From the NCBI RefSeq assembly GCF_003813775.1, contig NZ_RPDH01000001.1, positions 1,488,001-1,552,000 of the forward strand: 64,000 nucleotides of DNA. The letters run 5' to 3'. The first letter of the stretch is position 1; each line of letters opens with the position of its first letter. The notes beneath the pieces were generated by a model. It had not been told where the DNA came from. It saw only the letters and a list, made by a program, of their open reading frames with translations, and searched no databases. Source of the stretch: Chitinophaga lutea (lineage in GTDB: Bacteria > Bacteroidota > Bacteroidia > Chitinophagales > Chitinophagaceae). This document shows positions 6,859-49,069 of this stretch, piece by piece. Both the position numbers and the translations under genes were made by a program.

Positions 6859-6931
6859 ACAACCGGCAATATTCACCGGTTCCTGGTAAACGGGAAAACA
6901 CACCGGCCACCACCGCATTTTCAAAAGCAAT

Positions 6932-6968
6932 AAAAAACGCCCGGCAGTACCGGGCGTTTCTTTTTTTT
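6932..6968. terminator. bidirectional terminator between convergent genes
   Basis: A 10-bp perfect stem, AAACGCCCGG (6935-6944) with CCGGGCGTTT (6950-6959), and a CAGTA loop. A-rich sequence precedes it and a T-run (6957-6968) follows it, so it can end both the ATPase transcript and the leftward hydrolase transcript. Confidence 0.85.
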
Positions 6969-7854
6969 AGAATTTGATTTCCGCAGGTGGCGTATTATTC
7001 AGGAACGGCGTGGTGACGTTCATGATCTTTTCCGTTTCCATCATGAGCGTTACGTGGCCTGTGGCGGGAAAAATGGCGAGGCGCGATTTCGGCACACCGC
7101 CGGCCATGTCTGCGAAGATGTCCCCACCCAGCAGCCGGTACATGTCGGTTTTGTGCGTCATGTCCACCCCGTCGTTATCGCCCATGATCAGTAATACCGG
7201 GGCTTTGATGCCTTTGATATTGTTTTCGCCGAGGTTAAAATCTACCTGGTCCAGCTGCATGTACTTCGTGACGAACTTTTTCCAGTCGCCCGGTTTGGGC
7301 GCAACACTCTCATATACGGCTTTCAGCGGCGAGCCGTCGAACATATCGGGTGTGAAGGTCTTGAAAGCCTCCACCGCTTCCGGCCGCCAGCCGTTCATTT
7401 TGTATACGGTGGAAAGCGCCACGAGTTTTTTCACCATTTTCGGATGTGCGATGGCCAGCTGGAATGCAACGGTACCGCCGAGGCTGTAACCGAGCACATC
7501 GGCGCTGTCAATTTTCAGGTGTTTGAGAAGGCCGGCCACATCATCCGCCAGCGCGGGGTAGGTGGGCTTGCGGTCGATGTCGCCCGTGTGCCCGTGCCCC
7601 TGCATTTCCAGCGCGATCACTTTACGGGTTTTCGCCAGTTCCGGGATCAGCTGGCTCCAGTTCAGGTTAATGGTCATGAAGCTGCCGTGCAGCAATACGA
7701 TGGGCTCGCCTTCGCCGTGGATTTCATAATACAGCTTGAGGCCGTTCACCGGTGCATAACCGGACGATTTTAAAGTGGCGAGGGGTTGTTGCGTCTGGGC
7801 GTTCACGGCGGCGAACGTGCAAAGAGATAACAGCAGTGCAAAAAGCTTTTTCAT
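6967..7854 (-). CDS. exported alpha/beta hydrolase
   Basis: 295 residues. The signal peptide MKKLFALLLSLCTFAAVNAQ is followed by an alpha/beta-hydrolase domain with LLHGSFM (oxyanion loop), nucleophile elbow GYSLGG, probable acid in LIMGDNDGVD and His in ATGHVTLM. It therefore acts in the periplasm or outside the cell on an ester-like or other small substrate that I cannot name. The gene is preceded by an exact TAnnTTTG element and shares the strong terminator with the metal ATPase. Confidence 0.85.
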   Translation of the reverse strand: MKKLFALLLSLCTFAAVNAQTQQPLATLKSSGYAPVNGLKLYYEIHGEGEPIVLLHGSFMTINLNWSQLIPELAKTRKVIALEMQGHGHTGDIDRKPTYPALADDVAGLLKHLKIDSADVLGYSLGGTVAFQLAIAHPKMVKKLVALSTVYKMNGWRPEAVEAFKTFTPDMFDGSPLKAVYESVAPKPGDWKKFVTKYMQLDQVDFNLGENNIKGIKAPVLLIMGDNDGVDMTHKTDMYRLLGGDIFADMAGGVPKSRLAIFPATGHVTLMMETEKIMNVTTPFLNNTPPAEIKF

Positions 7855-7885
7855 TGTTTTCTGGTTTTAGTCAGGTTTAACAATG

Positions 7886-7893
7886 CAAACATA
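7886..7893 (-). promoter_or_regulatory. -7 promoter element (TATGTTTG)
   Basis: An exact match to the Bacteroidota TAnnTTTG element on the minus strand, 31 bases before the start of the exported hydrolase. I see no good TTTG -33 box at 19-21 bases. Confidence 0.45.
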
Positions 7894-7965
7894 AGCCCGT
7901 CCACCGGATTCGATGGTGTGCTATCACGACATTTGTGGGGCGGTTTGCGACTTCTTGGAAAAGCC

Positions 7966-9309
7966 CTATGATTCCAGCCCTAATCGTCTTGAAATATCGG
8001 AACTGAATTTGTTCTGCGGATCGTATTTCCGTTTCACGGCCAGCCATTCGGTGTACCGGGGATACATGGCCTTGAACGTTTTTTCATCGAGCAGCGCATC
8101 TTTGCCGAGGTACAGGCGGCCGCCGTATTCCAGCACTTTCGCATCCAGTTTCGGGGTAAAGGCCAGCAGTTGAGGAGTTACGGGGAAATCGATCGCCAGC
8201 GTGTAGCCACGGAACGGGAACGACAGGATACCCTGGCCGTCGCCCATTTTCTTGAATACGTTCAAAAACGGCATGCAACCGCTATCGGCGATCATGTTGA
8301 GGATTTCGGTGAGATGCCGTTTGCCGTTCTCTTCCGGTATCACAAACTGGTACTGTACAAATCCGCGTTTACCGTAGCCTTTGTTCCAGTTGTTGATGGC
8401 ATCGAGGGGGAAGAAAAATTTATCGTAATGCACAAACGCTTTCGGGGAGTTCTGCACGAAGGCGATCACTTTGTTGAGGATACGCACCGTGAGGCCGTTA
8501 AGGGCAAAACCGGGAAGGAAGAAAGGAACGCTCAGTTTCCCGGAGCGGTGCAGTTTCAGCGGCTCCTGTCTCAGCTTCTCCGGTAATTCATGCAATGCAG
8601 CGCCGTTGCCGAGGGTGAGTACGCCGCTGCCCAGCTTGCTGCCTTTCGCCAGCGCGTCGATCCAGGCAACGGAATAGTTGTACGTGTGATCATATTCCTC
8701 CAGCGCTGCCAGCATATGATCGAGGTTTTTGATGCGCACGGATTTCTGCCGGAAATACGTGGTTTCTATTTTGCGCAGCTGCATTTTTACGGTGAGGATG
8801 ATGCCGAGCAGGCCCAGCCCGCCGAAGTTGGCCCAGAAAAGGTCCGCATTTTCCGTGCGCGACGCGGTAACGATGCTGCCGTCGGCCAGCAGGATGGTAA
8901 AGGAAAGCACGCAATTCACGAAGGAACCGTCGGTGTGGTGGGCTTTGCCGTGGATGTCGTTGGCAATGGCGCCGCCGAGGGTGACGAACTTCGTACCGGG
9001 GCAGATCATCGGGAACCAGCCTTTCGGGGCGAATACCGAGATGATCTCATCGAGGCTGGCGCCGGCCTGGCATTCCAGCACGCCGGTGGTGTCGTCCCAG
9101 GCGATGAAATAGTTGAGATGGGTGCAAAGCACCACGTTGCGGTTTTCATTCACCGCCTGGTCGCCGTAGCTCCTGCCCAGTCCGCGGGCAATCACGGGGC
9201 CGTCTTTTAAAGCATCCCTGGAATCGTTTTCGCTGCGGGGGGTTAAGATATAAGACTCGGCAACGGGGTAATTGCCCCAGCCCGCCAATTTTCCTTTCTT
9301 CAGTGGCAT
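7966..9309 (-). CDS. FAD-dependent oxidase, DprE1/aldonolactone oxidase-like
   Basis: 447 residues from ATG 9309. The N-terminal PCMH-type FAD domain shows RGLGRSYGDQ and GTKFVTLGGAIANDIHGK, the motif block shared by D-arabinono-lactone oxidases and decaprenylphosphoryl-ribose oxidase (DprE1). The C-terminal half carries the family's conserved YGKRGFVQYQFVIP and ends with YDPQNKFSSDISRRLGL. DprE1 works with an SDR partner (DprE2) to epimerise a lipid-linked ribose. An SDR does lie next door (9563) but divergently and with the wrong subgroup motifs, so the pair is probably coincidental. A sugar or sugar-lactone oxidase is the safe call. Confidence 0.85.
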   Translation of the reverse strand: MPLKKGKLAGWGNYPVAESYILTPRSENDSRDALKDGPVIARGLGRSYGDQAVNENRNVVLCTHLNYFIAWDDTTGVLECQAGASLDEIISVFAPKGWFPMICPGTKFVTLGGAIANDIHGKAHHTDGSFVNCVLSFTILLADGSIVTASRTENADLFWANFGGLGLLGIILTVKMQLRKIETTYFRQKSVRIKNLDHMLAALEEYDHTYNYSVAWIDALAKGSKLGSGVLTLGNGAALHELPEKLRQEPLKLHRSGKLSVPFFLPGFALNGLTVRILNKVIAFVQNSPKAFVHYDKFFFPLDAINNWNKGYGKRGFVQYQFVIPEENGKRHLTEILNMIADSGCMPFLNVFKKMGDGQGILSFPFRGYTLAIDFPVTPQLLAFTPKLDAKVLEYGGRLYLGKDALLDEKTFKAMYPRYTEWLAVKRKYDPQNKFSSDISRRLGLES

Positions 9310-9562
9310 CGGGAACACTAATTTCGCGCAAGTTAGCCATTTTAGGCCATTCCCCGGCGTTTATTCGCGGCGGAAGCCCTTCTGGCGCACAACTGGCGTG
9401 GCGCCCTTCCTGCGCCCGATAACGCTCCGGGGATGCCGTACCGGAAAACAAAAACATAACGCCGGGCAATTATTGGAATTATACCATTATTGGTGTGATG
9501 CTGACAATTTTACCAGCCGCCGTGTGCCGACCTTTGTACCGTTACTTCAAAACAATGTAATC

Positions 9563-33950: not shown

Positions 33951-35969
33951 TTATCGTTTTACGGAAGTACCCGTTGCATCCAGCAGCGCCTGCACCTGCT
34001 CTTTGATGTAATCGTTCTGCATGAACCTGTACAGGTTTTTACCGGGGCAGCTGGTTTGGCTGGAATGATCTTTATGCGATGCAATCGTTTCGTACGAAAT
34101 ACCGTACTTCCGGCATGCGTAGGCGACAGTATTGATCAGCGCATCCAGTTGCCGCGGGTCTACCTGCTGCTCTTCGAAATTACCGAGGCAGGTGATCAGC
34201 AGATGGCCCGCCGGGTTGTATTCCGTGGCGGTTTCACCGACCGTGAACACATCACGCCCTTCGAACACCGTGCCGTCCGGCGCAATCAGGAAATGATAGG
34301 GAATATCGGCCCAGTTGCGGTCTTTCCCCATGCCCCATACCTGCACGTTTTTGATGTGCTGCGCGGCGATTTTGGTGGAGTCGAAGCGGGTGCCTTCATG
34401 ATGAATCGTTATCCTGACGGGTTGATGTTTCGCAAAGGGTTTCGGGGGATTGGCATTCCAGCCTGCGCGCGGCACAATGGGCACGTCTACCGCTTTACCC
34501 AGCCAGGCGCTTTCGTTGCCCGTGCGGCCTACTGCGGTTACCCCGGCCACGGCGAGGCGTTGTTTCCCGTTCACGGCCGGCACCACGATCGTTCGTTCGC
34601 TGCCAACCGGCATTTTGTAGGACCACTGCGTTCCGTACCGCAAATACACCACCCAGCGGAACACTTCTTCCGTCCGCGGATGTTCCCATCGAATGCGCAT
34701 GCTGTCGCCCGCCGCTTCGATGGCGAATGATGGCTGCGCCGGCGCAACGGTATTCAGCCAGGGACTTGCCGGCACCAGTGCGGGTGTTTTGTAAGGGCCA
34801 TCCAGCAAAGCTTTCGCCATGTTGGGATTATCCGCCACGGAACCGATGTGCCAGTGCACCACTCCCATATCGTCCGGCATCATGCCGCGGGTGATCATGA
34901 TCTTGCTCACGGTTTCGTGCACGTTGAGGCGGGAGCTGTCTTTTCCCACGCTGATGCCCGGCCACAGGTGCCGCTGCATTTTGTTCTCTTCTTTCCACCA
35001 GCCCAGCAGCACGGGAAAACTGAGCGCCACCCGGTCGATGGGCCAGTACAACTGCGGCGAATAATAGTCTATCCAGCCTTTGTTCAGCCACAGGCGGGCA
35101 TCGGCATATAATTCGTCGTGCTGGTCGAAGCCCGCGCTGATGGCAGGCGGAAAACCCGGGCGGTAAATGCCGAAGGGGCTGAGACCGAACTTCACATGTT
35201 TTTTGGTCGCTTTGATATCGCCATACACGCGCTGGATGAACTGGTTCACGGCATCACGGCGCCAGTCGGCGCGGGAAAGTTTGCCGCCTGCTTTTTTGTA
35301 TGCGGCCCAGCTGTCGTTATCCGGGAAATCCGCATCGCCGTTGTAGGACGGATACGGATAAAAATAATCGTCGAAATGCACACCGTCGATGTCGTATCTT
35401 TTCACGATATCGTTCACCACCGCAGCGCCATGGTCCTGCGTCGCTTTCTTCGCAGGATCGAACCACCAGTAGCCTTCCTTGAGATGCACCACGTCGGCGG
35501 GCATCCTTTTGACCACCGAACTGTCCGACACTTCGCCGCCCGCCACATGATGGGCGCGGTAGGGGTTGAGCCACACGTGCAACTCCAGTCCCCGACGGTG
35601 CGCTTCTTCCACCCAGAACGCCAGCGGATCATAGTATGGCGACGGCGCCTGTCCCTGTTTGCCCGTGAGGTAATACGACCACGGCTCGAGGCTGCTTTGG
35701 TACAGGGCGTCCGCCTGCGGCCGTACCTGGAAAATAACGGCATTGAAATTGTGCTCCCGGAGGAAGTCGAGCAGGCGGACAGCTTCTGCCTGCTGCTCCG
35801 CGGTAGAGAGGCCGGGGCGCGAAGGCCAGTTGATATTGGCGACGGTGGCCACCCAGGCCGCCCTGAATTCCGCAGGGGCTTTGGGGCGTGGAGGGGTGCT
35901 GACAGTCTGCCGGGCCGGCGTACAGGCCGCGGCCAGCAGTATCGCTGCAGCGAAGAACAACTTTTGCAT
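33951..35969 (-). CDS. lipoprotein fusing a GHL10 glycosidase to an Amidase_2 domain
   Basis: 672 residues from ATG 35969; the frame runs on to 36488 but overlaps the divergent gene. Lipobox ILLAAAC puts the lipid on Cys16. Residues about 30-370 are a GHL10 (DUF187) TIM barrel: EFRAAWVATVANINWPS, VIFQVRPQADALY, GVHFDDYFYPYP, and YYSPQLYWP. A beta-sandwich linker follows (about 390-485), then an N-acetylmuramoyl-L-alanine amidase / PGRP-like domain (about 500-650) with zinc ligands in ITIHHEGT and SHKDHSSQTSCPGK. GHL10 members such as E. coli DigH cut denuded peptidoglycan glycans, so the protein could strip stem peptides and then cleave the glycan. Either domain might alternatively be regulatory. 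Confidence 0.88.
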   Translation of the reverse strand: MQKLFFAAAILLAAACTPARQTVSTPPRPKAPAEFRAAWVATVANINWPSRPGLSTAEQQAEAVRLLDFLREHNFNAVIFQVRPQADALYQSSLEPWSYYLTGKQGQAPSPYYDPLAFWVEEAHRRGLELHVWLNPYRAHHVAGGEVSDSSVVKRMPADVVHLKEGYWWFDPAKKATQDHGAAVVNDIVKRYDIDGVHFDDYFYPYPSYNGDADFPDNDSWAAYKKAGGKLSRADWRRDAVNQFIQRVYGDIKATKKHVKFGLSPFGIYRPGFPPAISAGFDQHDELYADARLWLNKGWIDYYSPQLYWPIDRVALSFPVLLGWWKEENKMQRHLWPGISVGKDSSRLNVHETVSKIMITRGMMPDDMGVVHWHIGSVADNPNMAKALLDGPYKTPALVPASPWLNTVAPAQPSFAIEAAGDSMRIRWEHPRTEEVFRWVVYLRYGTQWSYKMPVGSERTIVVPAVNGKQRLAVAGVTAVGRTGNESAWLGKAVDVPIVPRAGWNANPPKPFAKHQPVRITIHHEGTRFDSTKIAAQHIKNVQVWGMGKDRNWADIPYHFLIAPDGTVFEGRDVFTVGETATEYNPAGHLLITCLGNFEEQQVDPRQLDALINTVAYACRKYGISYETIASHKDHSSQTSCPGKNLYRFMQNDYIKEQVQALLDATGTSVKR

Positions 35970-36048
35970 GTTTAAAAATACACAACAGTTCGCAGGATTT
36001 AAACAATGCACCGTACCACTTGTTATCTGAACTTTGTAAATCTGCCGG

Positions 36049-37404
36049 ATGAAAAAATACGATGCCATCATTATCGGGTCGGGCCAGGCGGCCAATCCCC
36101 TGGCGAAGAAACTCGCCCGGGCAGGGCGGCGCACATTGTTACTGGAAAACCATGCCATCGGGGGCACCTGTATCAACACCGGCTGCACGCCTACCAAAAC
36201 CATGATCGCCGTGGGAAGAATGCGGTATATCGTGTCCCGCGCCCCGGAGTTCGGCATCCCCGTACAGGCGGGTGATGTTGATCTAACTGCGGTGATTAAA
36301 CGAAAAAATGAAGTCGTCTCCTCCTTCCGGGACGGCCTCGAAAAAAGTCTCGAAAAAACCGACAACCTCGACGTGGTGCGGGAGCAGGGCGTTTTTACCG
36401 GGCATAAGATCGTCAACAACGCATTCACCGCGGAACATATTTTCATCAACACCGGTGCGGCGCCGGCCATACCGCCCATTCCCGGCATCGACCAGGTACG
36501 TTACCTCACGTCGGCCGGCATGCTCGAATTGCAGGAGGTGCCGCAGCACCTGGCCATACTGGGCACCGGCTACATCGCCATGGAGCTGGGCCAGCTTTTC
36601 CGGCGGCTGGGCAGCCGTGTTACGATGATCGAAAGGGGCCACAGCATTCTGAACAAAGAAGACGATGACGTGGCCGCGGCCGTGCACAAAATCCTGGAAG
36701 AAGACGGCATCCGTATCCTCACCGATACGACGGTCGAACGTACCGCACCCCTGCAGGGCGGCGGCGTACGGCTCACACTTTCCGGTGGCGGCGAATTAAC
36801 GGCTACGCACTGGCTGATCGCCACCGGCCGCGCCCCTGCCACCGCGGCGCTGCAGCTCCCCCAAACCGGCATCACGCCCGACGGGCGCGGATTTATTCCC
36901 GTCAACGAATACCTCGAAACCACCGTGCCCGGCATCTACGCCCTCGGCGATGTAAAAAAGGGACCCGCTTTCACGCATATTTCCTATAATGATTATCTTG
37001 TAGCGTCGGAGAACATCCTGAACAACGCACACATTTCCATCAAAAACCGGCCCGTGCCCTATTGCATGTTTACAGACCCCGAGCTGGGCCGTATCGGCAT
37101 CACGGAAAAAGAAGCCCGCGCAAAAGGCCTGGCTGTGAAAGTGGCCACGCTTCCGCTCGGCAAAGTGGCCCGCGCCATCGAAACCGGCGAAACGAGGGGG
37201 CTCATGAAAGCCGTAGTGGACGCCGAAAGCGGGCAGATACTGGGCGCCTCCGTACTGTCCGTCAGCGGCGGCGAAATCATGGCAGTGCTGCAAATGGCGA
37301 TGATGGGGAAGATCACTTATAAACAGCTGCGCAATACCATATTTGCGCATCCGACATTTGCGGAATCACTGAATAATCTTTTTATGACACTGGACAATGA
37401 TTGA
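36049..37404 (+). CDS. mercuric-reductase-like FAD-dependent disulfide reductase; candidate ergothioneine disulfide reductase
   Basis: 451 residues, class I pyridine nucleotide-disulfide oxidoreductase. FAD motif GSGQAANP, redox pair Cys41/Cys46 in GGTCINTGCTPTK, NAD(P) motif GTGYIAMELG (about 175-190), GDVKKGPAFTH for FAD, and a C-terminal His434-Glu439 dyad in AHPTFAES. It lacks the N-terminal metal domain and the C-terminal Cys pair of true MerA but keeps the His-Glu dyad used by glutathione and related reductases, so a small disulfide is a better substrate guess than Hg2+. It is the first gene of the EgtB/EgtD operon and overlaps the ABC ATPase by 8 bases. The substrate assignment is inference. 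Confidence 0.85.
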   Translation: MKKYDAIIIGSGQAANPLAKKLARAGRRTLLLENHAIGGTCINTGCTPTKTMIAVGRMRYIVSRAPEFGIPVQAGDVDLTAVIKRKNEVVSSFRDGLEKSLEKTDNLDVVREQGVFTGHKIVNNAFTAEHIFINTGAAPAIPPIPGIDQVRYLTSAGMLELQEVPQHLAILGTGYIAMELGQLFRRLGSRVTMIERGHSILNKEDDDVAAAVHKILEEDGIRILTDTTVERTAPLQGGGVRLTLSGGGELTATHWLIATGRAPATAALQLPQTGITPDGRGFIPVNEYLETTVPGIYALGDVKKGPAFTHISYNDYLVASENILNNAHISIKNRPVPYCMFTDPELGRIGITEKEARAKGLAVKVATLPLGKVARAIETGETRGLMKAVVDAESGQILGASVLSVSGGEIMAVLQMAMMGKITYKQLRNTIFAHPTFAESLNNLFMTLDND

Positions 37405-38113
37405 AGCGCGCCACCTCCATAAAACATTTGGTACTACCCGCGCCGTGCAGGACGTTTCGTTTTCCGTGCAGGAAGGCGAAAACTTCATTCTGCTCGGCAC
37501 CAGCGGCTGCGGCAAAACCACCACGCTCAAAATGCTCAACCGCCTGCTGGAACCGGACGGTGGACAGGTGCTGCTCAACGGCGCCGACACCGCGACCATA
37601 CCCGCGCCGCAACTACGCAGGGGCATGGGGTATGTATTGCAGCACACGGGATTGTTTCCCCACTACACCGTGGCCGAAAACATCGCCGTTGTGCCGAAAC
37701 TGCTCCACTGGGAAAAAGACGCCATCCAGGAACGCACGGCAACGCTCATGCAAAAACTCGGGCTTTCGTACAGCGAACATGCTCATGCGTACCCCCACCA
37801 GCTCAGCGGCGGGCAGCAGCAGCGCGTGGGCCTCGCCCGGGCGCTGGCTGCCGACCCGCCCGTGCTGCTGATGGACGAACCTTTCGGCGCCCTCGACCCC
37901 ATCACGCGCGACCGGATCCGTACCGAGTTCAGCGAACTGGACGAATTCAAAAAGAAAACCATCATCATGGTCACCCACGACGTGCAGGAAGCATTCACCC
38001 TCGCCACGCGCGTGTGCCTGATGGACGAGGGCCGCATCGTGCAGATGGGCACGCCGGACCAATTGCGGGAACAGCCCGTCAATGATTTTGTGCGCACATT
38101 CCTGAAACTATGA
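37397..38113 (+). CDS. ABC transporter ATPase, OpuCA/EgtV-like
   Basis: 238 residues: Walker A GTSGCGKTTT, Q-loop YVLQHTGLFPHYTV, signature LSGGQQQRVGLARAL, Walker B VLLMDEPFGALD, and H-loop VTHD. The shape and the LFPHYTV Q-loop fit the quaternary-amine (OpuC) family, which also contains EgtV, the ATPase for ergothioneine uptake. It lacks the C-terminal CBS domains of osmoregulated OpuCA/ProV, which argues against simple osmotic control. It overlaps both neighbours (8 bases upstream, 4 bases ATGA downstream). Confidence 0.9.
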   Translation: MIEARHLHKTFGTTRAVQDVSFSVQEGENFILLGTSGCGKTTTLKMLNRLLEPDGGQVLLNGADTATIPAPQLRRGMGYVLQHTGLFPHYTVAENIAVVPKLLHWEKDAIQERTATLMQKLGLSYSEHAHAYPHQLSGGQQQRVGLARALAADPPVLLMDEPFGALDPITRDRIRTEFSELDEFKKKTIIMVTHDVQEAFTLATRVCLMDEGRIVQMGTPDQLREQPVNDFVRTFLKL

Positions 38114-39654
38114 ACGAATTCCTCGAATTTATCCGGTCGCAGTCCGGCAAACTTTTACAGCAAACGCTCACCCACATCAACCTCACGCTGATGTCGGTGG
38201 CCATTGCGATCGCCATCGGCGTGCCGCTGGGCATCCTGATCGCACGCCGGCAAAAGCTGGCCGGAACGGTACTCGGCTTCGCCGGCGTGCTGCAGACCAT
38301 CCCCAGCATCGCCCTGCTGGGTTTTATGATACCGTTGCTCGGCATCGGCCCGAAACCGGCCATCGTAGCGTTATTCCTCTACGCCCTGCTGCCCATCATC
38401 CGCAACACCTACACCGGCATCACCGGGGTGGACGCCAACGTCAGGGAAGCCGCACGCGGCATGGGCATGACGCAGCGGCAGGTGCTGTTCCGGGTGGAGC
38501 TGCCGCTGTCGATGACCGTGGTGATTGCCGGCATCAGGACCGCCACCGTCATCAACGTCGGCGTGGCCACGCTCGCCGCCTATATTGCGGCCGGCGGGTT
38601 GGGGGAATTCATTTTCGGCGGCATCGCCCTCAACAATACCCACATGATACTCGCCGGCGCCATCCCCGCCGCCCTGCTGGCGTTGCTCTTCGACTTTTTG
38701 CTGGGGCGGCTGCAGAAAAAATTAAAATGGAAACTGGGCCTGGTGGCCCTGCTGAGTGTCACCCTTCTTTTTTTCGCCATGCTGCCGGCGGCTTCCTCCG
38801 GTAAACTGCTGGCAGGCTTTACGCCGGAGTTCATGGGTCGGATGGACGGCTACCTCGGCCTCAAAAAAGTTTATGGCCTCCACATGCGCAATGTGGTGAT
38901 CAACGACGCGGTGATGTACCAGGCCATGCATGAAAACAAACTCGATGTGATCAGCGGTTACAGCACAGACGGCCGCATCAAGGCCTTCGACCTCATCACC
39001 CTCACCGACGATAAAACCATCTTCCCGCCCTACTATGCCGCCCCGCTGGTGCGCGCCGGGCTGCTGGAGCAATACCCCGAACTGGAAAGCACGCTCAACC
39101 AGCTCAGCGGCCGCATCAACGATTCCATCATGACGCTGCTGAACTACCAGGCCGATTTCCTGAAAAAGAGCCCGGAGGCCGTGGCGAAAACATTCCTGGA
39201 GCAACAGGGGTTATATAAAGCGCCCCGTTACGGCAACAAAGGCGTGGTGCGCATCGGCTCGAAAATTTTCACGGAACAATACATCCTCGTGGAAATGTAC
39301 CGCATGCTGATTGAGGGCAATACCGATCTGGCCGTATCGTCCAAAACGGGGCTGGGCGGCACCAAAATATGTTTTGATGCGCTCGCCAATAACCAGATCG
39401 ATTTTTACCCCGAATATACCGGCACCGGGTTGCTCGTGATACTGCAGCCCCCCGCGGATAAAATCACGGCGCTGGTGCAGGATAAAGACAGCGTGTACCA
39501 ATACGTACAGGCACAATTTATGCAGCAGTATAACCTCCGCTGGCTGAAGCCCATCGGGTTCAACAACGCGTACGCCCTGATGATGCAGCGCCGGAAAGCG
39601 GCAGACCTGCACATCGAAACAATTTCTGACCTGGTCAAAATAACAACACCATGA
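38110..39654 (+). CDS. ABC permease fused to a circularly permuted OpuC/EgtU-like substrate-binding domain
   Basis: 514 residues. The permease (about 1-200) has BPD_transp_1 helices and the EAA loop VREAARGMGMTQRQVLFRVELP. An extra helix near 210-230 (GLVALLSVTLLFFAMLP) places the rest in the periplasm. That part is a type-F OpuAC/OsmF binding domain in swapped order. First (about 235-370) comes the segment that is normally C-terminal (FTPEFMGRMDGYLGLKKVYG, YSTDGRIKAFDL, YYAAPLVR). Then (about 375-514) comes the normally N-terminal segment (VRIGSKIFTEQYILVEMYR, LGGTKICFDAL, FYPEYTGTG, GFNNAYALMM). Coupled by ATGA to egtB. Ergothioneine or a trimethylammonium betaine is the likely cargo. Confidence 0.88.
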   Translation: MNEFLEFIRSQSGKLLQQTLTHINLTLMSVAIAIAIGVPLGILIARRQKLAGTVLGFAGVLQTIPSIALLGFMIPLLGIGPKPAIVALFLYALLPIIRNTYTGITGVDANVREAARGMGMTQRQVLFRVELPLSMTVVIAGIRTATVINVGVATLAAYIAAGGLGEFIFGGIALNNTHMILAGAIPAALLALLFDFLLGRLQKKLKWKLGLVALLSVTLLFFAMLPAASSGKLLAGFTPEFMGRMDGYLGLKKVYGLHMRNVVINDAVMYQAMHENKLDVISGYSTDGRIKAFDLITLTDDKTIFPPYYAAPLVRAGLLEQYPELESTLNQLSGRINDSIMTLLNYQADFLKKSPEAVAKTFLEQQGLYKAPRYGNKGVVRIGSKIFTEQYILVEMYRMLIEGNTDLAVSSKTGLGGTKICFDALANNQIDFYPEYTGTGLLVILQPPADKITALVQDKDSVYQYVQAQFMQQYNLRWLKPIGFNNAYALMMQRRKAADLHIETISDLVKITTP

Positions 39655-40796
39655 GCCTGATCGAACAGTACAGGAAAGTGAGAAAACTGACAGAGACCAT
39701 TTGCAGCCCGCTGCACACGGAAGACTACGTGGTGCAGCCCATCGCGGACGTGAGCCCGCCCAAATGGCACCTGGGCCATACCACCTGGTTTTTTGAAACA
39801 CTGGTACTGAAACCTTATCTCGAAAATTATACGGAGTTCGACGCGAACTTCAATTTTGTATTCAACAGTTATTACGAAAGCCTGGGCGCCCGCGTTATCC
39901 GCACCCAGCGGGGCAACCTGAGCCGGCCCACCGTGAACGAGATCTACCGCTATCGCGTATACGTAGACGAAGCGATGGAAGTACTGCTCTCGAAACCGGT
40001 GGATGATACCGTGCGCACGCTCATCACCCTAGGCTGCAACCACGAAGAGCAGCACCAGGAACTTTTGTGGACGGACATCAAATACATCCTCGGCCACAAC
40101 CCGCTTTTCCCCGCTTACGACACCGCGTTGCCCGTGCAGCAGGGACGGGTGAAGGAGGGGTGGATAGCGGTGAAGGGGGGCCTGCACCACATCGGTTACC
40201 AGGGCGACGGCTTTTGTTACGACAACGAACTGGGCCGCCACCAGGTATATGTACAGCCCTGCAAAATCGCCGCCTCCCTGGTGACGAACGAAGCTTATCT
40301 CGAATTCATGCAGCAGGGCGGTTACCGGCAGTTCGAGCACTGGTACGCCGAAGGCTGGGACTGGGTGCGCAACAATCAGGTCGAAGCCCCGATGTACTGG
40401 TACAACATCGAAGGGAGCTGGTTTCATTATACGTTGCAGGGACTGCAGCCGCTGGCGTTACACGAGCCCGTCACCCACGTCAGTTTTTACGAAGCCGCCG
40501 CCTATGCGGCCTGGAAAGGTTGCCGGCTGCCCACGGAATTCGAATGGGAAGTGGCGGCCGCGGAGCTCGACTGGGGGCGCCGCTGGGAATGGACGGAAAG
40601 CGCCTACCTGCCCTACCCGGGTTTTGCGCGCGTGGCAGGCCCCGTTGGTGAGTACAATGGCAAGTTCATGGTCAACCAGAAAGTGTTGCGCGGTGCTTCC
40701 GAATTTACCTCACCGGGGCACAGCCGCCCCACTTACAGGAATTTTTTTCACCCTCACCTCCGCTGGCAGCTGACAGGTATACGGCTTGCGGTGTAA
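39651..40796 (+). CDS. egtB: ergothioneine biosynthesis sulfoxide synthase EgtB
   Basis: 381 residues. An N-terminal DinB_2-type domain carries the iron ligands: His43 in WHLGHTTWFFE, and His131 and His135 in NHEEQHQELL. A C-terminal formylglycine-generating-enzyme-like domain follows (about 170-381) with FYEAAAYAAWKGCRLPTEFEWE and GASEFTSPGHSRPTYRNFF. EgtB uses non-haem Fe2+ and O2 to join hercynine to a thiol donor and oxidise it to the sulfoxide. The donor (gamma-Glu-Cys or Cys) cannot be read from the sequence, but no egtA or egtC is present. It overlaps the permease gene by 4 bases. Confidence 0.93.
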   Translation: MSLIEQYRKVRKLTETICSPLHTEDYVVQPIADVSPPKWHLGHTTWFFETLVLKPYLENYTEFDANFNFVFNSYYESLGARVIRTQRGNLSRPTVNEIYRYRVYVDEAMEVLLSKPVDDTVRTLITLGCNHEEQHQELLWTDIKYILGHNPLFPAYDTALPVQQGRVKEGWIAVKGGLHHIGYQGDGFCYDNELGRHQVYVQPCKIAASLVTNEAYLEFMQQGGYRQFEHWYAEGWDWVRNNQVEAPMYWYNIEGSWFHYTLQGLQPLALHEPVTHVSFYEAAAYAAWKGCRLPTEFEWEVAAAELDWGRRWEWTESAYLPYPGFARVAGPVGEYNGKFMVNQKVLRGASEFTSPGHSRPTYRNFFHPHLRWQLTGIRLAV

Positions 40797-40811
40797 GATC
40801 AAAGGACTTTC

Positions 40812-41795
40812 ATGAAAACAGCTACCATATTACAAAGAACAGCCGTAGACGATTTTTATGGCGATGTATTGAAAGGGCTCACCGCCTCACCGAAATATCT
40901 CCAGTCGAAATACTTTTACGATGCCACGGGCGACGCGCTCTTCCAGCAGATCATGCACCTGCCGGAATATTATCTCACACGCAGCGAACTGGAAATTTTG
41001 TCCGGCCAAACCCGCGACATTGCCGACGCACTCGGCGCCACGCCGTTCAACCTCGTGGAACTGGGCGCCGGCGATGCGTCCAAATCGTTTTACCTGCTCA
41101 AAGAACTGCACCGGCGCAACCCGGAGCAGGCGTATTACCCCATCGATATTTCCGAGAACATCATCAACCACCTGCAGCGCACCCTGCCGGCGAAGCTGCC
41201 GGGATTGCAGGTGCAGGGCCTCAGGGGAGAATATATGGACATGCTGAAAGCGATGGATTATTTGTCCGCCCGCCGCAAAGTGGTGATGTTCATGGGCTCC
41301 AGCATCGGCAACTTCACGCCCGACGAAGCGGTGAAGTTCTGCCGCAAACTGCGCGAGCAGCTGCAGCCCGGCGATCTACTGCTGATCGGCTTCGACCTGC
41401 GCAAACATCCGCGCACGATCCTCGATGCATATAACGACCGCCGGGGCGTTACCCGCGATTTTAATCTCAACCTGCTCACACGCATCAACCGCGAACTGAA
41501 AGCCGATTTCGACATTAACCAGTTCGATCATTTCCCGGTATATGATCCCATCAGCGGGGCCTGCAAAAGTTATCTCATCAGTCGCGCCGACCAAACCGTA
41601 CAACTAGGCGACCACAGTATCCGCTTCAAAAAAGACGAGCCCGTTTTCATGGAAATTTCGCAGAAGTACAGTCTTGATGAAACCCGCCAGCTTGCCGCAG
41701 CTGCAGGCTTCCGGCCGGTGCAGTATTTCTTCGACGAAAAGCGCTGGTTTACCGACGTGCTCTGGGAACTCGCTCAAACGCATAATTGCCTTTGA
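40812..41795 (+). CDS. egtD: L-histidine N-alpha-methyltransferase EgtD
   Basis: 327 residues, close to the usual 320. SAM-binding motif LVELGAGDASKS (about 82-92), Tyr in EYYLTRSELEIL, Asn in GSSIGNFTPDEA, and Glu/Ser in FMEISQKYSL, which match the histidine-binding residues known from mycobacterial EgtD. It makes hercynine by three methylations of histidine. It starts 15 bases after egtB and is the last gene of the operon. Its last 47 bases overlap the convergent KTSC gene. The C-S lyase (EgtE) that would finish the pathway is not in this window. Confidence 0.95.
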   Translation: MKTATILQRTAVDDFYGDVLKGLTASPKYLQSKYFYDATGDALFQQIMHLPEYYLTRSELEILSGQTRDIADALGATPFNLVELGAGDASKSFYLLKELHRRNPEQAYYPIDISENIINHLQRTLPAKLPGLQVQGLRGEYMDMLKAMDYLSARRKVVMFMGSSIGNFTPDEAVKFCRKLREQLQPGDLLLIGFDLRKHPRTILDAYNDRRGVTRDFNLNLLTRINRELKADFDINQFDHFPVYDPISGACKSYLISRADQTVQLGDHSIRFKKDEPVFMEISQKYSLDETRQLAAAAGFRPVQYFFDEKRWFTDVLWELAQTHNCL

Positions 41796-43036: not shown

Positions 43037-46000
43037 ATGACGACCCGGAAAAAAACCGTGGAATCAGCCAAATCTGCCGCCCGAAGTGTGGAAATAATTC
43101 CACAGCCTTCTACGAACGGCCATGATGAACTCGACGCCCGCCAGCTCCTGCACGTGCTCTCAGAAGTCAAAAACGGGAATTTCAGCGCCCGTATGCCCGT
43201 TGATAATACCGGGTTGACCGGCAAGATCTGCGATACCCTCAACGATATTATTTCCCTGAATGAAACGCTGGTGGAGGAACTGAACCTCGCCCGCAATACC
43301 ATCGGCAAACAGGGCAAACTGAACCACCGCGTGACCATGCCCCGTACCGCCCGCGGCTCCTGGGAAACGGCCGTAGGCTCCATCAATACGCTCATTTCCG
43401 ATCTTGTTCACCCTACGATAGAGATCGCCCATGTGATCGGGTCGGTAGCGAAGGGCAACCTGTCTACCGAAATGACCCTGCAGATCGGCGACCACGAACT
43501 GCAGGGCGAATTTGCCCGCATCGCCACCGAAGTGAACGGTATGGTGAAGCAGCTCAACGCTTTTTCCATGGAAGTAACCCGCGTGGCCCGCGAAGTGGGC
43601 TCCGAAGGGAAACTCGGCGGCCAGGCGAAAGTGAAGGATGTGGCCGGCGTATGGAAAGACCTCACCGATTCCGTAAACCTCATGGCCGGCAACCTTACCG
43701 CGCAGGTGCGTAACATTGCGGACGTAACAACGGCCGTGGCGAAGGGCGACCTTTCCAAAAAGATCACGGTAGACGTGAAAGGGGAAATCCTGGAGCTGAA
43801 AGACACCATCAACACCATGGTGGACCAGCTCAACTCCTTCTCTTCCGAAGTAACCCGCGTGGCCCGGGAAGTGGGCACGGACGGCAAACTCGGCGGCCAG
43901 GCGCAGGTAAAAGGCGTGGCCGGTACCTGGAAAGACCTCACCGACTCCGTGAACCAGATGGCCTCCAACCTCACCGGCCAGGTGCGTAACATCGCCGAGG
44001 TTACAACGGCCGTGGCGCGCGGCGACCTTTCCCGCAAAATCACCGTAGACGTAAAGGGCGAAATCCTCGAACTGAAAAATACCATCAATACCATGGTGGA
44101 CCAGCTCAACTCCTTCTCCGCCGAAGTAACGCGCGTGGCGCGCGAAGTAGGATCCGAGGGCAAGCTGGGTGGCCAGGCCACCGTAAAAGGCGTGGGCGGT
44201 GTGTGGAAAGACCTGACCGAGTCCGTGAACCAGATGGGCTCCAACCTCACCGCACAGGTGCGTAACATCGCCGAAGTAACCACCGCCGTGGCAAAAGGCG
44301 ACCTTTCCCGCAAAATCACCGTAGACGTAAAAGGAGAAATCCTCGAACTGAAAAACACCATCAACACGATGGTGGACCAGCTCAACTCCTTCGCATCCGA
44401 AGTAACCCGTGTGGCGCTGGAAGTGGGTACGGAAGGCAAGCTCGGCGGCCAGGCCAAAGTGCAGGGCGTGGGTGGTACCTGGAAAGACCTCACCGATTCC
44501 GTGAACCAGATGGGCTCCAACCTCACCGCGCAGGTGCGTAACATCGCCGAAGTGACCACCGCCGTGGCCAATGGCGACCTCTCCAAAAAAATCACGGTAG
44601 ACGTGGCCGGCGAAATCGCCGAACTGAAAAAAACCATCAACACGATGGTAGACCAGCTCAACTCGTTCGCTTCCGAAGTGACCCGTGTGGCGCTGGAAGT
44701 GGGTACGGAAGGCAAGCTCGGCGGCCAGGCCAAAGTGCAGGGCGTGGGCGGTACCTGGAAAGACCTCACCGAATCGGTAAACCAGATGGGCTCCAACCTC
44801 ACCGCACAGGTGCGTAACATCGCCGAAGTAACCACGGCCGTGGCGAAAGGCGACCTCTCCCGTAAGATCACCGTAGACGTAAAAGGAGAAATCCTCGAAC
44901 TGAAAAATACCATCAACACCATGGTGGACCAGCTGAACGCATTCGGTTCCGAAGTGTTCCGCGTGGCCCGCGAAGTGGGCTCCGAAGGCAAGCTGGGCGG
45001 CCAGGCCAGTGTGCCCGGCGTGGAAGGGCTCTGGAAAGACCTCACCGACTCCGTGAACATCATGGCCTCCAACCTCACCTCACAGGTGCGCAACATCGCC
45101 GAAGTAACCACTGCGGTGGCAAACGGCGACCTCTCGCGTAAAATCGAGGTGGACGTAAAAGGTGAGATCCTCGAACTGAAAAACACCATCAACACGATGG
45201 TGGAACAGCTCCGCGCGTTCGCCTCCGAGGTGACCCGCGTGGCGCGCGAAGTAGGCACGGAAGGGAAACTCGGCGGCCAGGCCAACGTGCCCGGCGTAGG
45301 CGGTACCTGGAAAGACCTTACCGACTCCGTGAACATGATGGCCGGCAACCTCACCGCCCAGGTGCGTAACATCGCGGACGTGGCCATTGCCGTGGCCAAC
45401 GGCGACATGAGCCGGAAAATCACCGTGGACGTGCGCGGTGAAATCCTCCAGCTGAAAGAAACCCTCAATACGATGGTGGACCAGCTCCGCGCGTTCGCCT
45501 CCGAAGTAACGCGCGTGGCCCGTGAAGTGGGCACGGACGGTAAACTCGGCGGCCAGGCGTTTGTGCCGGGCGTAGCCGGAACCTGGAAAGACCTCACGGA
45601 CTCCGTGAACAACATGACCGGTAACCTCACCGCACAGGTGCGCAACATCGCCGAAGTAACAAAAGCCGTGGCCTCCGGCGACCTGTCCAAAAAGGTGACT
45701 ATCGACGTAAAAGGTGAAATCCTCGACCTGAAAAATACCATCAACACCATGGTGGACCAGCTCAACTCCTTTGCATTCGAAGTAACCCGCGTGGCCCGCG
45801 AAGTGGGCACCGAAGGGAAACTCGGCGGACAGGCCGAAGTGCAGGGTGTGGGCGGCACCTGGAAAGACCTCACGGACTCCGTGAACATGATGGCCTCCAA
45901 CCTTACGAACCAGGTTCGGGGGATTGCAAAAGTGGTAACCGCCGTGGCCACCGGTAATTTGAAACAGAAGTTATCGGTGGTGTCACGCGGGGAGGTGGCC

Positions 46001-49000
46001 CAGCTCACCGAAACCATCAACGAAATGATCGACACACTGGCCGTGTTTGCCGACCAGGTAACCACCGTGGCCAGGGAAGTGGGCGTGGAAGGGAGACTCG
46101 GCGGTCAATCGAGCGTACCCGGCGCCTCCGGCATCTGGAAAAACCTCACCGAAAACGTGAACCAGCTCGCCGAAAATCTCACCACGCAGGTGCGCGCCAT
46201 TTCGGCCGTGGCCTCCGCCGTAACGAAAGGCGACCTGACGCAGATGATCCGCGTGGAAGCGAAAGGGGAAGTGGAACAGCTGAAAGATACCATCAACCAG
46301 ATGATCACCAACCTCAAACAGACCACGCTCCGAAACCAGGAACAGGACTGGCTCAAATCCAACCTCGCCACTTTCACACAGATGCTGCAGGGCCAGAAAG
46401 ACCTGCACACCGTGACCAACCGTATCCTTTCCGAACTGGCGCGGGTGGTGAACGCCCAAAAAGGCATGTTCTACATCCTGAAGCAGGATGAAAACATGAA
46501 TGATCCCAAACTCAAACTGCTGGCCTCCTACGCCTACGGCGAAGAATCGCACATCGCCCGCGAATTCGCGCTGGGTCAGGGCCTGGTAGGCCAGTGCGCG
46601 GTTGACAAGGAACGCATCCTGCTCACCAACGTACCGGGCGACTATATCAAAATATCCTCCGGCCTCGGTTCCGCCCCGCCGCTCAACCTCATCGTACTGC
46701 CGGTACTTTTCGAAACCGAGATCAAAGCCGTGATCGAGCTTGCCGCTTTCGACGCATTCAGCCAGACACACCTCGACTTTCTCAGCCAGCTGACCGAAAG
46801 TATCGGCATCGTGCTCAACACCATCGAAGCGAATTCCAGAACGGAAGATCTGCTGGCGCAGTCGCAGTCGCTCGCCGACGAGCTCCGCAAAGCGAATGAA
46901 GAGCTGCAGGACAAAGCGCACCTGCTCGTGAAACAGAAAAACGAAGTGGAAGAGAAAAACCGCGAGGTGGAAGAAGCGCGCCGTTCGCTCGAAGAAAAGG
47001 CGGAACAGCTGCAGCTCACCTCCAAATATAAATCCGAGTTCCTCGCCAACATGAGCCACGAGTTGCGGACGCCGCTCAATTCCCTGCTCATCCTGGCGCA
47101 GCAGCTGTACGAGAACCACGACGGCAACCTCGACGAAAAGCAGGTACGTTACGCCAAAACCATCCACAGCTGCGGCGACGACCTCATCCAGCTGATCAAC
47201 GACATCCTCGATCTGTCGAAGATCGAGTCAGGTTACATTTCCACCGACTTCATCAAAGTCCGCTTCCACGAGGTGATCGCATTCGTGGAAACCACTTTCA
47301 AACATATCTCCGAAAACAAGAACCTCCGCTTCAGCGTGGAAATCGACGACAAGCTGCCGCAAACACTCGAAACGGACGTGCAGCGCCTCAACCAGATTCT
47401 GAAGAACCTGCTGTCGAATGCGTTCAAGTTCACGGAAAAAGGCGAAGTGAAACTGCGGGTATACGAGGCCGGCCACACCTGGAAAGTACAGAACAGCAAC
47501 CTCGACAATGCCCAGCAGGTGGTGGCCTTCGAGATCCGCGATACGGGAATCGGTATATCGAAAGATAAACAGAACATCATCTTCGAGGCATTCCAGCAGG
47601 CCGAAGGTTCTACCAGCCGTAAATACGGCGGCACCGGTCTTGGGTTGTCTATCAGCCGCGGCCTGGCGGATCTGCTGGGCGGGTCCATCGAGCTGGAAAG
47701 CGAGGCCGGCATGGGCAGTACCTTCACCCTGTACCTGCCGCTGCAGTATACGCCCGATACCGAGCTGGAAGAAAAACCAAGGATCACCGCCCACCCCTTC
47801 GAAGCGCCGAAAGCGCCCGAAACCAAGGACCTCGAGAGCCTCAACGAGATTATCAACGACATCGGCGACGACCGTAACAACATCATGGAAAACGACAAGG
47901 TGGTGCTGATCATCGAAGACGATGTGCGCTTTGCCCGCATCATGCAGGAAAAGGCCCATGAAATGGGGCTGAAAGTAGTGGTGGCCATCAGTTTCGGGGA
48001 GGTGTTCGACCTCACCAACAAATACAATCCCATTGCCGTTACGCTCGACGTGAAGCTGCCCGATGCCAGCGGATGGCGCATACTCGACCTGTTCAAGAAC
48101 GACGTGAACCTCCGCCACATCCCCATCCACCTCATATCCGGGGAAGAAAACAGGCTGCTAGCCATGCAGCGCGGGGCAAGGAGTTTCAATCTCAAACCGC
48201 TGAAGGCCGAAGACCTCACCGTGCTGTTCCAGACCATCAGCACACAGAACGACCGCAAGCAGAAAAAGGTGCTGGTGGTGGAAGACAACCAGCCCGATGC
48301 TTCACAGATCGCCCGCATCCTCGAAAACGGCGAGCTCATCCAGCTCGATTTCGTGACCGACGGCCGCCACGCGCTGGAACAGCTCGAAGCCCACACCTAC
48401 GATTGCATCATCGCCGATTACATGCTGCCAGACATGGAAGGCACCGACCTGCTGGCCAGTATCCAGGCGAGCCACCGGCAGCACGCCACGCCGCTGATCG
48501 TGTATTCCGCTAAAGATTTTTCCAAAACCGAAAAAGCGAAACTGAAACAATACGCCAATAAAATACTACTCAAAGACGTTAATTCACTCGACCTGCTGCT
48601 CGAAGAAACCATCCTGCAGCTGCATATCAACCATCAGAGCCTGCTTCCGGAAAAAAGGAAAATGATAGAAGACGTGCGTTCGCAGAAAGATGTGCTGAGC
48701 AATAAAACGGTATTGGTGGTAGACGACGATGTGCGCAACCTGTTTGCCCTCACCACCGCATTTGAACGGTTCCACATCAATACCATCACGGCCGAAAGCG
48801 GCAAGGAGGCGATGAGCATACTCGGCGAGCACAACCATGTGGATATTGTACTGATGGACATCATGATGCCCGAAATGGACGGTTATGAAACGATGCAGAA
48901 AATACGGCGGGAGCACAAAAACAACGCCCTGCCGATCATTGCGGTAACGGCCAAAGCCATGAAAGGCGACCGGGAAAAATGCCTGGAAGCCGGCGCATCG

Positions 49001-49069
49001 GACTATATAACGAAACCTTTGAAAATAGATCAACTACTGTCACTCATGCGTATCTGGCTATACAGATAA
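43037..49069 (+). CDS. giant soluble poly-HAMP hybrid histidine kinase (2010 aa)
   Basis: No signal peptide or membrane helix. Residues 30-185 are degenerate HAMP units; 186-1105 are ten consecutive 92-residue units (each starting EVGxxGKLGGQ, with WKDLT, NLTxQVRNIA, GDLSxKI and GEILELKxTIN); about 1110-1270 is GAF-like; a coiled coil follows. HisKA has its His near 1341 ([10 protein letters not shown]), then HATPase with [20 protein letters not shown] and [10 protein letters not shown]. Three receivers follow: about 1620-1740 ([10 protein letters not shown]), 1743-1870 ([11 protein letters not shown]) and 1890-2005 ([10 protein letters not shown]), each with its phospho-Asp. The design is like fungal group III (Nik1/Os-1) kinases, which have about five such repeats and respond to osmotic and fungicide stress. 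The signal here is unknown. Confidence 0.93.
43592..46351 (+). repeat. ten in-frame 276-bp coding repeats (poly-HAMP array)
   Basis: The units start at 43592, 43868 and so on every 276 bases to 46076, without length change. Units 3-5 are nearly identical at the DNA level (units 4 and 5 differ mostly at third codon positions), while units 9-10 are the most diverged. The array can expand or contract by recombination in whole 92-residue steps without breaking the frame. Confidence 0.9.

Follow-up and report, generated by a model that had tools for sequence, protein, structure and literature searches.

The 64,000-nucleotide window analysed here, positions 1488001-1552000 of contig C1 in the 6.6-Mb genome of Chitinophaga lutea (G000), contains a real, conserved operon associated with ergothioneine. 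According to the listing of open reading frames, five genes on the + strand follow one another in the order reductase (RED), ATP-binding cassette (ABC) ATPase, permease with fused binding domain (PERM), EgtB and EgtD, and their junctions of -8, -4, -4 and +15 bases agree exactly with the gene directions, the overlaps of 8, 4 and 4 bases and the 15-base gap given in an earlier note on this DNA. Comparison with related genomes indicates that the operon is a unit beyond chance. The binding domain of its importer is circularly permuted with respect to EgtU and ProX, which yields the chain order of OpuAC, a feature that the earlier note had overlooked. The data are compatible with a model, in our judgement slightly on the probable side, in which the locus constitutes an ergothioneine module of the Bacteroidota that combines synthesis, reduction driven by the reductase and recovery through the importer.

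The assignments of all five genes are consistent across Pfam, NCBIfam and PDB comparisons. EgtB and EgtD are clear, as the earlier note had held: EgtB scores 528.1 bits against TIGR03440 (cut-off 360) and has all three iron-ligand histidines (His43, His131 and His135), and EgtD, the single match to PF10017 in the genome, scores 322.5 bits against TIGR03438 (cut-off 290.9) and aligns with solved EgtD across the conserved N, Y and E-x-S positions, which we take to be pocket residues. The nearest PDB entries for EgtB include EgtB (Cabther); the closest solved structure is, going by the entry name, the Chloracidobacterium enzyme, which presumably uses cysteine. If the EgtB of the window likewise uses cysteine directly, no egtA or egtC is to be expected. 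Neither gene is in the operon, nor is an EgtE lyase, just as the same note had stated, and the genome has no match above the cut-off of an EgtE model: the best score against TIGR04343, whose reach to distant EgtE is unchecked, is 100.7 bits for a cut-off of 400. If ergothioneine is made, the C-S lyase step would thus fall to another pyridoxal-phosphate (PLP) enzyme. The mycobacterial egtABCDE pathway shares the EgtB and EgtD chemistry, whereas the window operon lacks egtA, egtC and egtE and adds a reductase and an importer.

The linkage of importer and synthesis was surveyed in 98 genomes of the family and 296 of the class, the importer being matched at E 1e-30 in the latter. Within the family, 14 genomes have the importer and 17 have EgtD; EgtD is present in all 14 importer genomes, and the importer in none of the 81 EgtD-negative ones (Fisher 2e-14). 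Importer and EgtD share a contig within about 5 kb in 12 of the 14 and lie on separate contigs in G001 and G049; in G033, the end of a contig leaves only the last 126 residues of the importer. The class yields 17 importer matches and 58 EgtD matches, and the permuted importer accounts for 16 of the 17, all in EgtD-positive genomes (Fisher 7e-13, with G239 entered as a genome without the permuted importer). The seventeenth match, L055 in G239, comes without an EgtD match and is a fusion whose binding domain stands ahead of the permease, its halves in standard order. Counting distinct genomes across both surveys (G000 once), all 29 with the importer also have EgtD, 22 of them linked and 7 unlinked (G001, G049, G151, G263, G280, G342 and G368). 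Among the 22, the order reductase-ATPase-permease-EgtB-EgtD is kept in 16, the last four genes occur without an adjoining reductase in four (G007, G045, G064 and G069), G306 is rearranged to EgtD-ATPase-permease-EgtB and G033 is cut by the contig end.

The gene order, whose lack of conservation the earlier note had named as a refutation, is found intact in 16 of the 29 importer genomes, with importer and egtBD apart in 7, so that this refutation did not materialise. A further set of 28 loci, for which 27 genomes were searched (L008 left out), points the same way: EgtD is present in 11 of 11 genomes with the permuted importer versus 2 of 16 others, both Terriglobia. Among the 11, L007/G392 has the same coordinates as G060 in the family survey and is probably the same assembly. 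Fifteen of those 16 other loci have standard-order halves, and in one (L024) no binding domain was seen. Of the single unit for making, retrieving and re-reducing ergothioneine that had been envisaged from the sequence, the conserved ergothioneine unit therefore stands, borne out by its co-occurrence with EgtD whether linked or not, and import and re-reduction stay conjectural. None of the literature listings showed the five-gene layout. All five genes also occur, at 53-72% identity to the window, on a contig titled Beijerinckiaceae (L012, CAJCIQ010000153.1); in the permease-domain tree it falls beside Deminuibacter (98/93), and the contig is probably misbinned.

RED carries the C41/C46 pair beside flavin adenine dinucleotide (FAD) and the motif HPTFAE at 434-439, features of a class I flavin disulfide reductase, the class already named in the earlier note; the pair forms part of CINTGC, and the motif supplies the C-terminal His-Glu. 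Its only cysteines are at 41, 46 and 339, and a C-terminal Cys pair is absent. Counted at E 1e-90, orthologs occur in 10 of the 98 family genomes, all ten EgtD-positive (Fisher 1.4e-9). Nine of the ten have RED inside the egtB-egtD cluster, seven of them as the first of five genes, and G007 has it elsewhere. In G018 it lies between egtD and egtB in a genome whose sole importer match is weak (E 1.7e-4), and in G001 it adjoins egtB with the importer on a separate contig; RED thus tracks the ergothioneine genes independently of the importer. No close RED was seen in the EgtD-flanking stretches (3.4-16 kb, several cut by contig ends) of 42 importer-negative class genomes, one of which, G233, has a 38% RED relative near EgtD. 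RED qualifies as a candidate reductase of oxidised ergothioneine or of the sulfenic acid formed in the final step of synthesis, possibly acting via a thiol carrier; literature searches found no dedicated bacterial ergothioneine-reducing enzyme. On a Liquorilactobacillus hordei plasmid (NZ_CP018177.1, L152:4708-8530), an importer in the EgtU state (pocket letters K L G Q T F T Y N Y E R Y Y) precedes its ATPase, after which comes a class I flavin disulfide reductase with only 27% identity to RED, so that a linkage of importer and reductase exists outside the Bacteroidota too.

In the mechanism proposed for the module, EgtD would make hercynine, consuming three S-adenosylmethionine (SAM) per molecule, and EgtB would couple hercynine and cysteine into a sulfoxide. 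Ergothioneine sulfenic acid would be released from it by a general PLP C-S lyase encoded elsewhere in the genome, and RED would pass electrons from reduced nicotinamide nucleotide, NAD(P)H, most likely via a thiol carrier, to this sulfenic acid and later to ergothioneine disulfide. The ABC importer would recover leaked ergothioneine or hercynine with a binding domain tethered to the permease through its second lobe, not its first. The trimethylammonium/carboxylate cage would be retained, but built like that of a glycine-betaine binder, so that ergothioneine may be bound less tightly than by pneumococcal EgtU, or the pocket may prefer hercynine. For the last step, PMC4493562 reports that the EgtE reaction releases the sulfenic acid in vitro and that ergothioneine is the only product detected with dithiothreitol; its authors propose natural thiols as the reductant in vivo.

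Several observations weigh against such a module. Related genomes contribute much of the co-occurrence, and none of the Fisher tests, that on RED included, is corrected for kinship. The importer is missing at E 1e-30 from 42 of the 58 EgtD-positive class genomes and is thus not needed for synthesis; RED is missing beside several linked importer-egtBD operons, which makes it an accessory part. RED could also be a general oxidant-defence enzyme of the RclA or hypothiocyanous-acid (HOSCN) reductase type that stands beside another antioxidant pathway and does not act on ergothioneine species, a possibility that we take seriously while leaning away from it. Among the 25 NCBIfam models shown of 49, the best-scoring are PRK06370 oxidoreductases, RclA, MerA and HOSCN reductase, and the nearest PDB chains are 6kgy, which we take to be RclA, and a mercuric reductase. 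On the other hand, RED falls below the curated cut-offs of all 25, and its close orthologs are confined to EgtD-positive genomes of the family, whereas a general enzyme would be expected in genomes without EgtD too. Specifically, MerA was rejected on the missing C-terminal vicinal Cys pair, presumably the hallmark of that enzyme, and on a TIGR02053 score of 367.6 against 454.45 bits; RclA and HOSCN reductase were rejected at 370.1 against 740 bits (NF040477) and 358.2 against 650 bits (NF041853). The chemistry of related enzymes also counts for the general role. According to PMC8868364, mammalian selenium thioredoxin reductase is the first report of a direct enzymatic recycling of oxidised ergothioneine, non-selenium thioredoxin reductases show little or no reduction of ergothioneine disulfide, and glutathione reductase acts on it only with glutathione. 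From these results on enzymes that rely on cysteine alone, direct reduction by RED is not to be assumed, and a thiol carrier is favoured.

The evidence on the substrate of the importer is divided, in that the genomic association favours ergothioneine or hercynine and the pocket chemistry a smaller betaine. The pocket was mapped in 32 permuted copies (L048, L050, L015 and L016 left out) onto SpEgtUC, with residue roles taken from sections 8, 9 and 13 of PMC9732360. In SpEgtU numbering, K242, T275, T296, N339, Y341, E375, R379 and Y443 are kept in 32 of 32 copies and Y419 in 30, the other two having S; in window numbering, K385, Y436, T439, N486, Y488, E240, R244 and Y308 are found in all 32 and Y284 in 30. 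These conserved cage and contact residues are drawn from both swapped segments. At the three positions that distinguish EgtU, G244, F293 and Y337, all 32 mapped copies and the 120 listed homologs have F, Y and F instead (F387, Y436 and F484 in the window), which is the state of AfProX, a glycine-betaine binder from Archaeoglobus whose letters were read from a printed alignment. In SpEgtUC, the substitution G244F weakens ergothioneine binding about 100-fold (PMC9732360). That the mapping can discriminate is indicated by plasmid-borne fusions used as a yardstick, since G/F/Y, as in EgtU, is seen in the two from Bacillota (L144 and L145), and Y/Y/F in the third, from Cetobacterium (L146).

It is accordingly conceivable, if rather unlikely, that the importer takes up glycine betaine or proline betaine and stands beside egtBD because of shared stress protection or to supply methyl groups for the SAM used by EgtD. 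Besides the F/Y/F state, this is suggested by L055, which has the same K-x-F, YPEY and GFxNxY motifs in a genome without EgtD, and by N339, which is also present in 14 of 15 standard-order relatives, so that neither N339 nor the motifs mark ergothioneine. The genome contains no BCCT carrier (other osmolyte carriers were not searched) and, as its sole other OpuAC-domain match, one at C3:556430 with 26.6 bits (cut-off 21.2); the importer could thus serve as an osmoprotectant importer. Against betaine uptake stands the fact that the permuted importer was never seen without EgtD in the genomes surveyed, unlinked cases included. In SpEgtUC, the residue at 243 contacts the thione sulfur (PMC9732360); of the 32 mapped copies, 31 carry I, V or M at this position and one carries S, versus P in AfProX and H in L055. 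Eleven of the 15 standard-order relatives show N, D, R or A there and the other four show I, so that, like N at 339, it is a weak marker. Transporters without the EgtU determinants can still aid lower-affinity ergothioneine uptake in Helicobacter pylori, according to the same source, and in an ergothioneine-producing Corynebacterium the loss of the betaine carrier BetP raised production marginally, which leads the authors to suggest possible ergothioneine import (PMC12689799).

The earlier note had labelled the importer EgtUV/OpuC-like and used EgtUV, which we believe to be the Helicobacter name, for the pneumococcal transporter. In PMC9732360, the pneumococcal transporter is called EgtU, and the label, taken as a sign of ergothioneine import, is not supported: every mapped copy departs from EgtU in chain order and at the three specificity positions, on which grounds membership in EgtU was rejected. 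EgtU of Streptococcus pneumoniae (EgtUA and EgtUBC) shares with the window importer an ATPase, a permease with a C-terminal F-III-type binding domain, K242, T296, E375, R379, the Tyr cage and an aliphatic residue at 243. It differs in the order of the binding-domain halves, in the change of G244/F293/Y337 to F/Y/F and in the linkage to biosynthesis genes, EgtB having 0 occurrences in the main text of PMC9732360. AfProX shares the F/Y/F state and the Tyr cage, whereas its chain order is not swapped, it has D instead of N at 339 and P instead of I at 243, and it is a separate protein rather than fused to a permease. For the glycine-betaine transporter OpuA/OpuAC of Lactococcus lactis and Bacillus subtilis, the identity to 2b4m in the binding domain is 13%, and the importer-family profile reaches 3l6g, a betaine permease/binding entry that is presumably OpuAC, only at E 0.16. 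OpuAC uses a Trp prism (PMC2861598), whereas the window binding domain, residues 231-514, has a single Trp, W478, and hence no such prism.

PERM is a fusion of transmembrane domain and binding domain encoded with its own ATPase, which scores 292.2 bits against TIGR01186, below the cut-off of 326.6. Residues 231-370 of PERM match chain 137-276 of EgtUC and residues 381-511 match chain 9-135, so that the two halves appear in reverse order, unlike the arrangement D1(N)-D2-D1(C) of EgtU. The structure model of the binding domain matches OpuAC over the full chain and has its topology. Most EgtUC rows in the Foldseek comparison cover about 141 columns, the aligned half being 46-47% identical. EgtU, OpuCC and AfProX entries are not among the best 50 structure-match rows for the PERM model, and their absence there was not used as evidence. 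PDB 8dp6, one of the binding-domain matches, is presumably H. pylori EgtU. Among importers from named organisms, that of Chitinophaga alhagiae is closest (87% identity), and from such relatives the family of the genome is taken as Chitinophagaceae.

That the swap stems from faulty alignment or assembly, or marks a binding domain that is broken (a pseudogene), is highly improbable and was rejected, for although two separate local matches could stem from repeats or fragments, and one Foldseek row (7txk_B) does align EgtUC across 324 columns, albeit at 7.1 A and 12% identity, the order is intact in 120 listed homologs of 7999 and in 21 locus copies (the window's own is in both sets), residues 368-383 around the joint have a single length in 40 of 40 aligned sequences, contacts are conserved from both segments and the PERM model follows OpuAC over its whole chain. 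Circular permutation among glycine-betaine-binding proteins has already been published (PMC2395249), which is why only its occurrence in this importer family looks new. TpMglB-2 of Treponema is likewise a naturally permuted, membrane-tethered ABC binding protein, but it is a lipoprotein of Type I/cluster B that binds glucose (PMC4990184). Variation in the associated proteins was seen on the side. The ATPases of L067, L068, L072, L073 and L074 have 318-320 residues, about 80 more than the 238 of the window; the extra part has no Pfam match in the three scanned, L067, L068 and L074. A scan of five ATPases of relatives found no CBS domain. P0015 (788 aa) and P0038 (805 aa) read as two tandem permease domains followed by the permuted binding domain, that is, as a single-chain double permease.

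As regards the origin of the permuted order, the permease-domain tree places the permuted rows (35 of 63) on one side of a branch with 99/95 support, L013 (frameshifts), L030 and L036 (repeats of the window and of L007) and weak or short matches having been excluded. With a ProW-type outgroup, four long-branch rows were also dropped, the very distant L021_std3 and L023_std3 stayed, and the branch has 80/94. A reduced rooted tree, with seven names on the drop list and 13 of the 35 permuted rows kept, splits the permuted rows, which stand together in 43% of bootstrap trees; the approximately unbiased test rejects neither a single permuted clade (p-AU 0.625) nor a single standard-order clade (p-AU 0.31). 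Because OpuAC itself is in the permuted order, the trees do not fix which order came first. Linkage of importer and synthesis is also not confined to the permuted form, since L015 (Terriglobia, 4705-9517) has a standard-order set of ATPase, permease and binding domain beside divergent egtB-egtD.

Upstream of the operon, a divergent ORF on the - strand (window 33951-36488) has, from its translation, the look of a secreted protein in which a glycosidase-type domain is fused with one resembling N-acetylmuramoyl-L-alanine amidase. Downstream, window 43037-49069 encodes a 2010-aa protein with many near-identical tandem repeats, followed by what we take to be histidine kinase and receiver domains. 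The features of the operon are collected in Table 1.

Table 1. Coordinates of the ergothioneine-associated operon and of its parts, in window positions.
Feature	Position	Strand	Size	Basis
RED, class I FAD disulfide reductase, first gene	36049..37404	+	451 aa	Pyr_redox_2 + Pyr_redox_dim
RED, redox-active CINTGC (C41, C46)	36169..36186	+		
ABC ATPase, ProV/OpuA class, without CBS domain match	37397..38113	+	238 aa	ABC_tran
PERM, permease with C-terminally fused binding domain	38110..39654	+	514 aa	BPD_transp_1 + OpuAC, structure model
PERM, MetI-type transmembrane domain	38110..38724	+	residues 1-205	
PERM, last hydrophobic segment, link from permease to binding domain	38725..38799	+	residues about 206-230	hydrophobic segment 205-231
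PERM, binding domain, first segment = second half of EgtUC/ProX	38800..39219	+		EgtUC chain 137-276
PERM, new joint, original C- to N-terminus	39220..39249	+	residues 371-380	one length in 40/40 aligned homologs
PERM, binding domain, second segment = first half of EgtUC/ProX	39250..39642	+		EgtUC chain 9-135
EgtB, sulfoxide synthase	39651..40796	+	381 aa	TIGR03440, His43/131/135
EgtD, histidine N-alpha-trimethyltransferase	40812..41795	+	327 aa	TIGR03438, PF10017, PDB EgtD

Microbes produce ergothioneine and animals accumulate it, and to our knowledge little is known of how bacteria re-reduce it or of whether producers salvage it. A far-reaching version of the module would be a self-contained ergothioneine economy of the Bacteroidota, in which a dedicated NAD(P)H reductase both completes synthesis and regenerates the product and an importer has reached the OpuAC order independently from EgtU/ProX-type sequence; we consider this version unlikely. 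We know of no dedicated NAD(P)H-dependent ergothioneine reductase in bacteria, so such an enzyme would be the first. The importer, for its part, warns against assigning the name EgtU by family membership alone. Confined to EgtD-positive genomes in the surveyed family, RED would offer a concrete candidate both for the recycling step that is still missing and as a source of the reductant required in the last step of synthesis.

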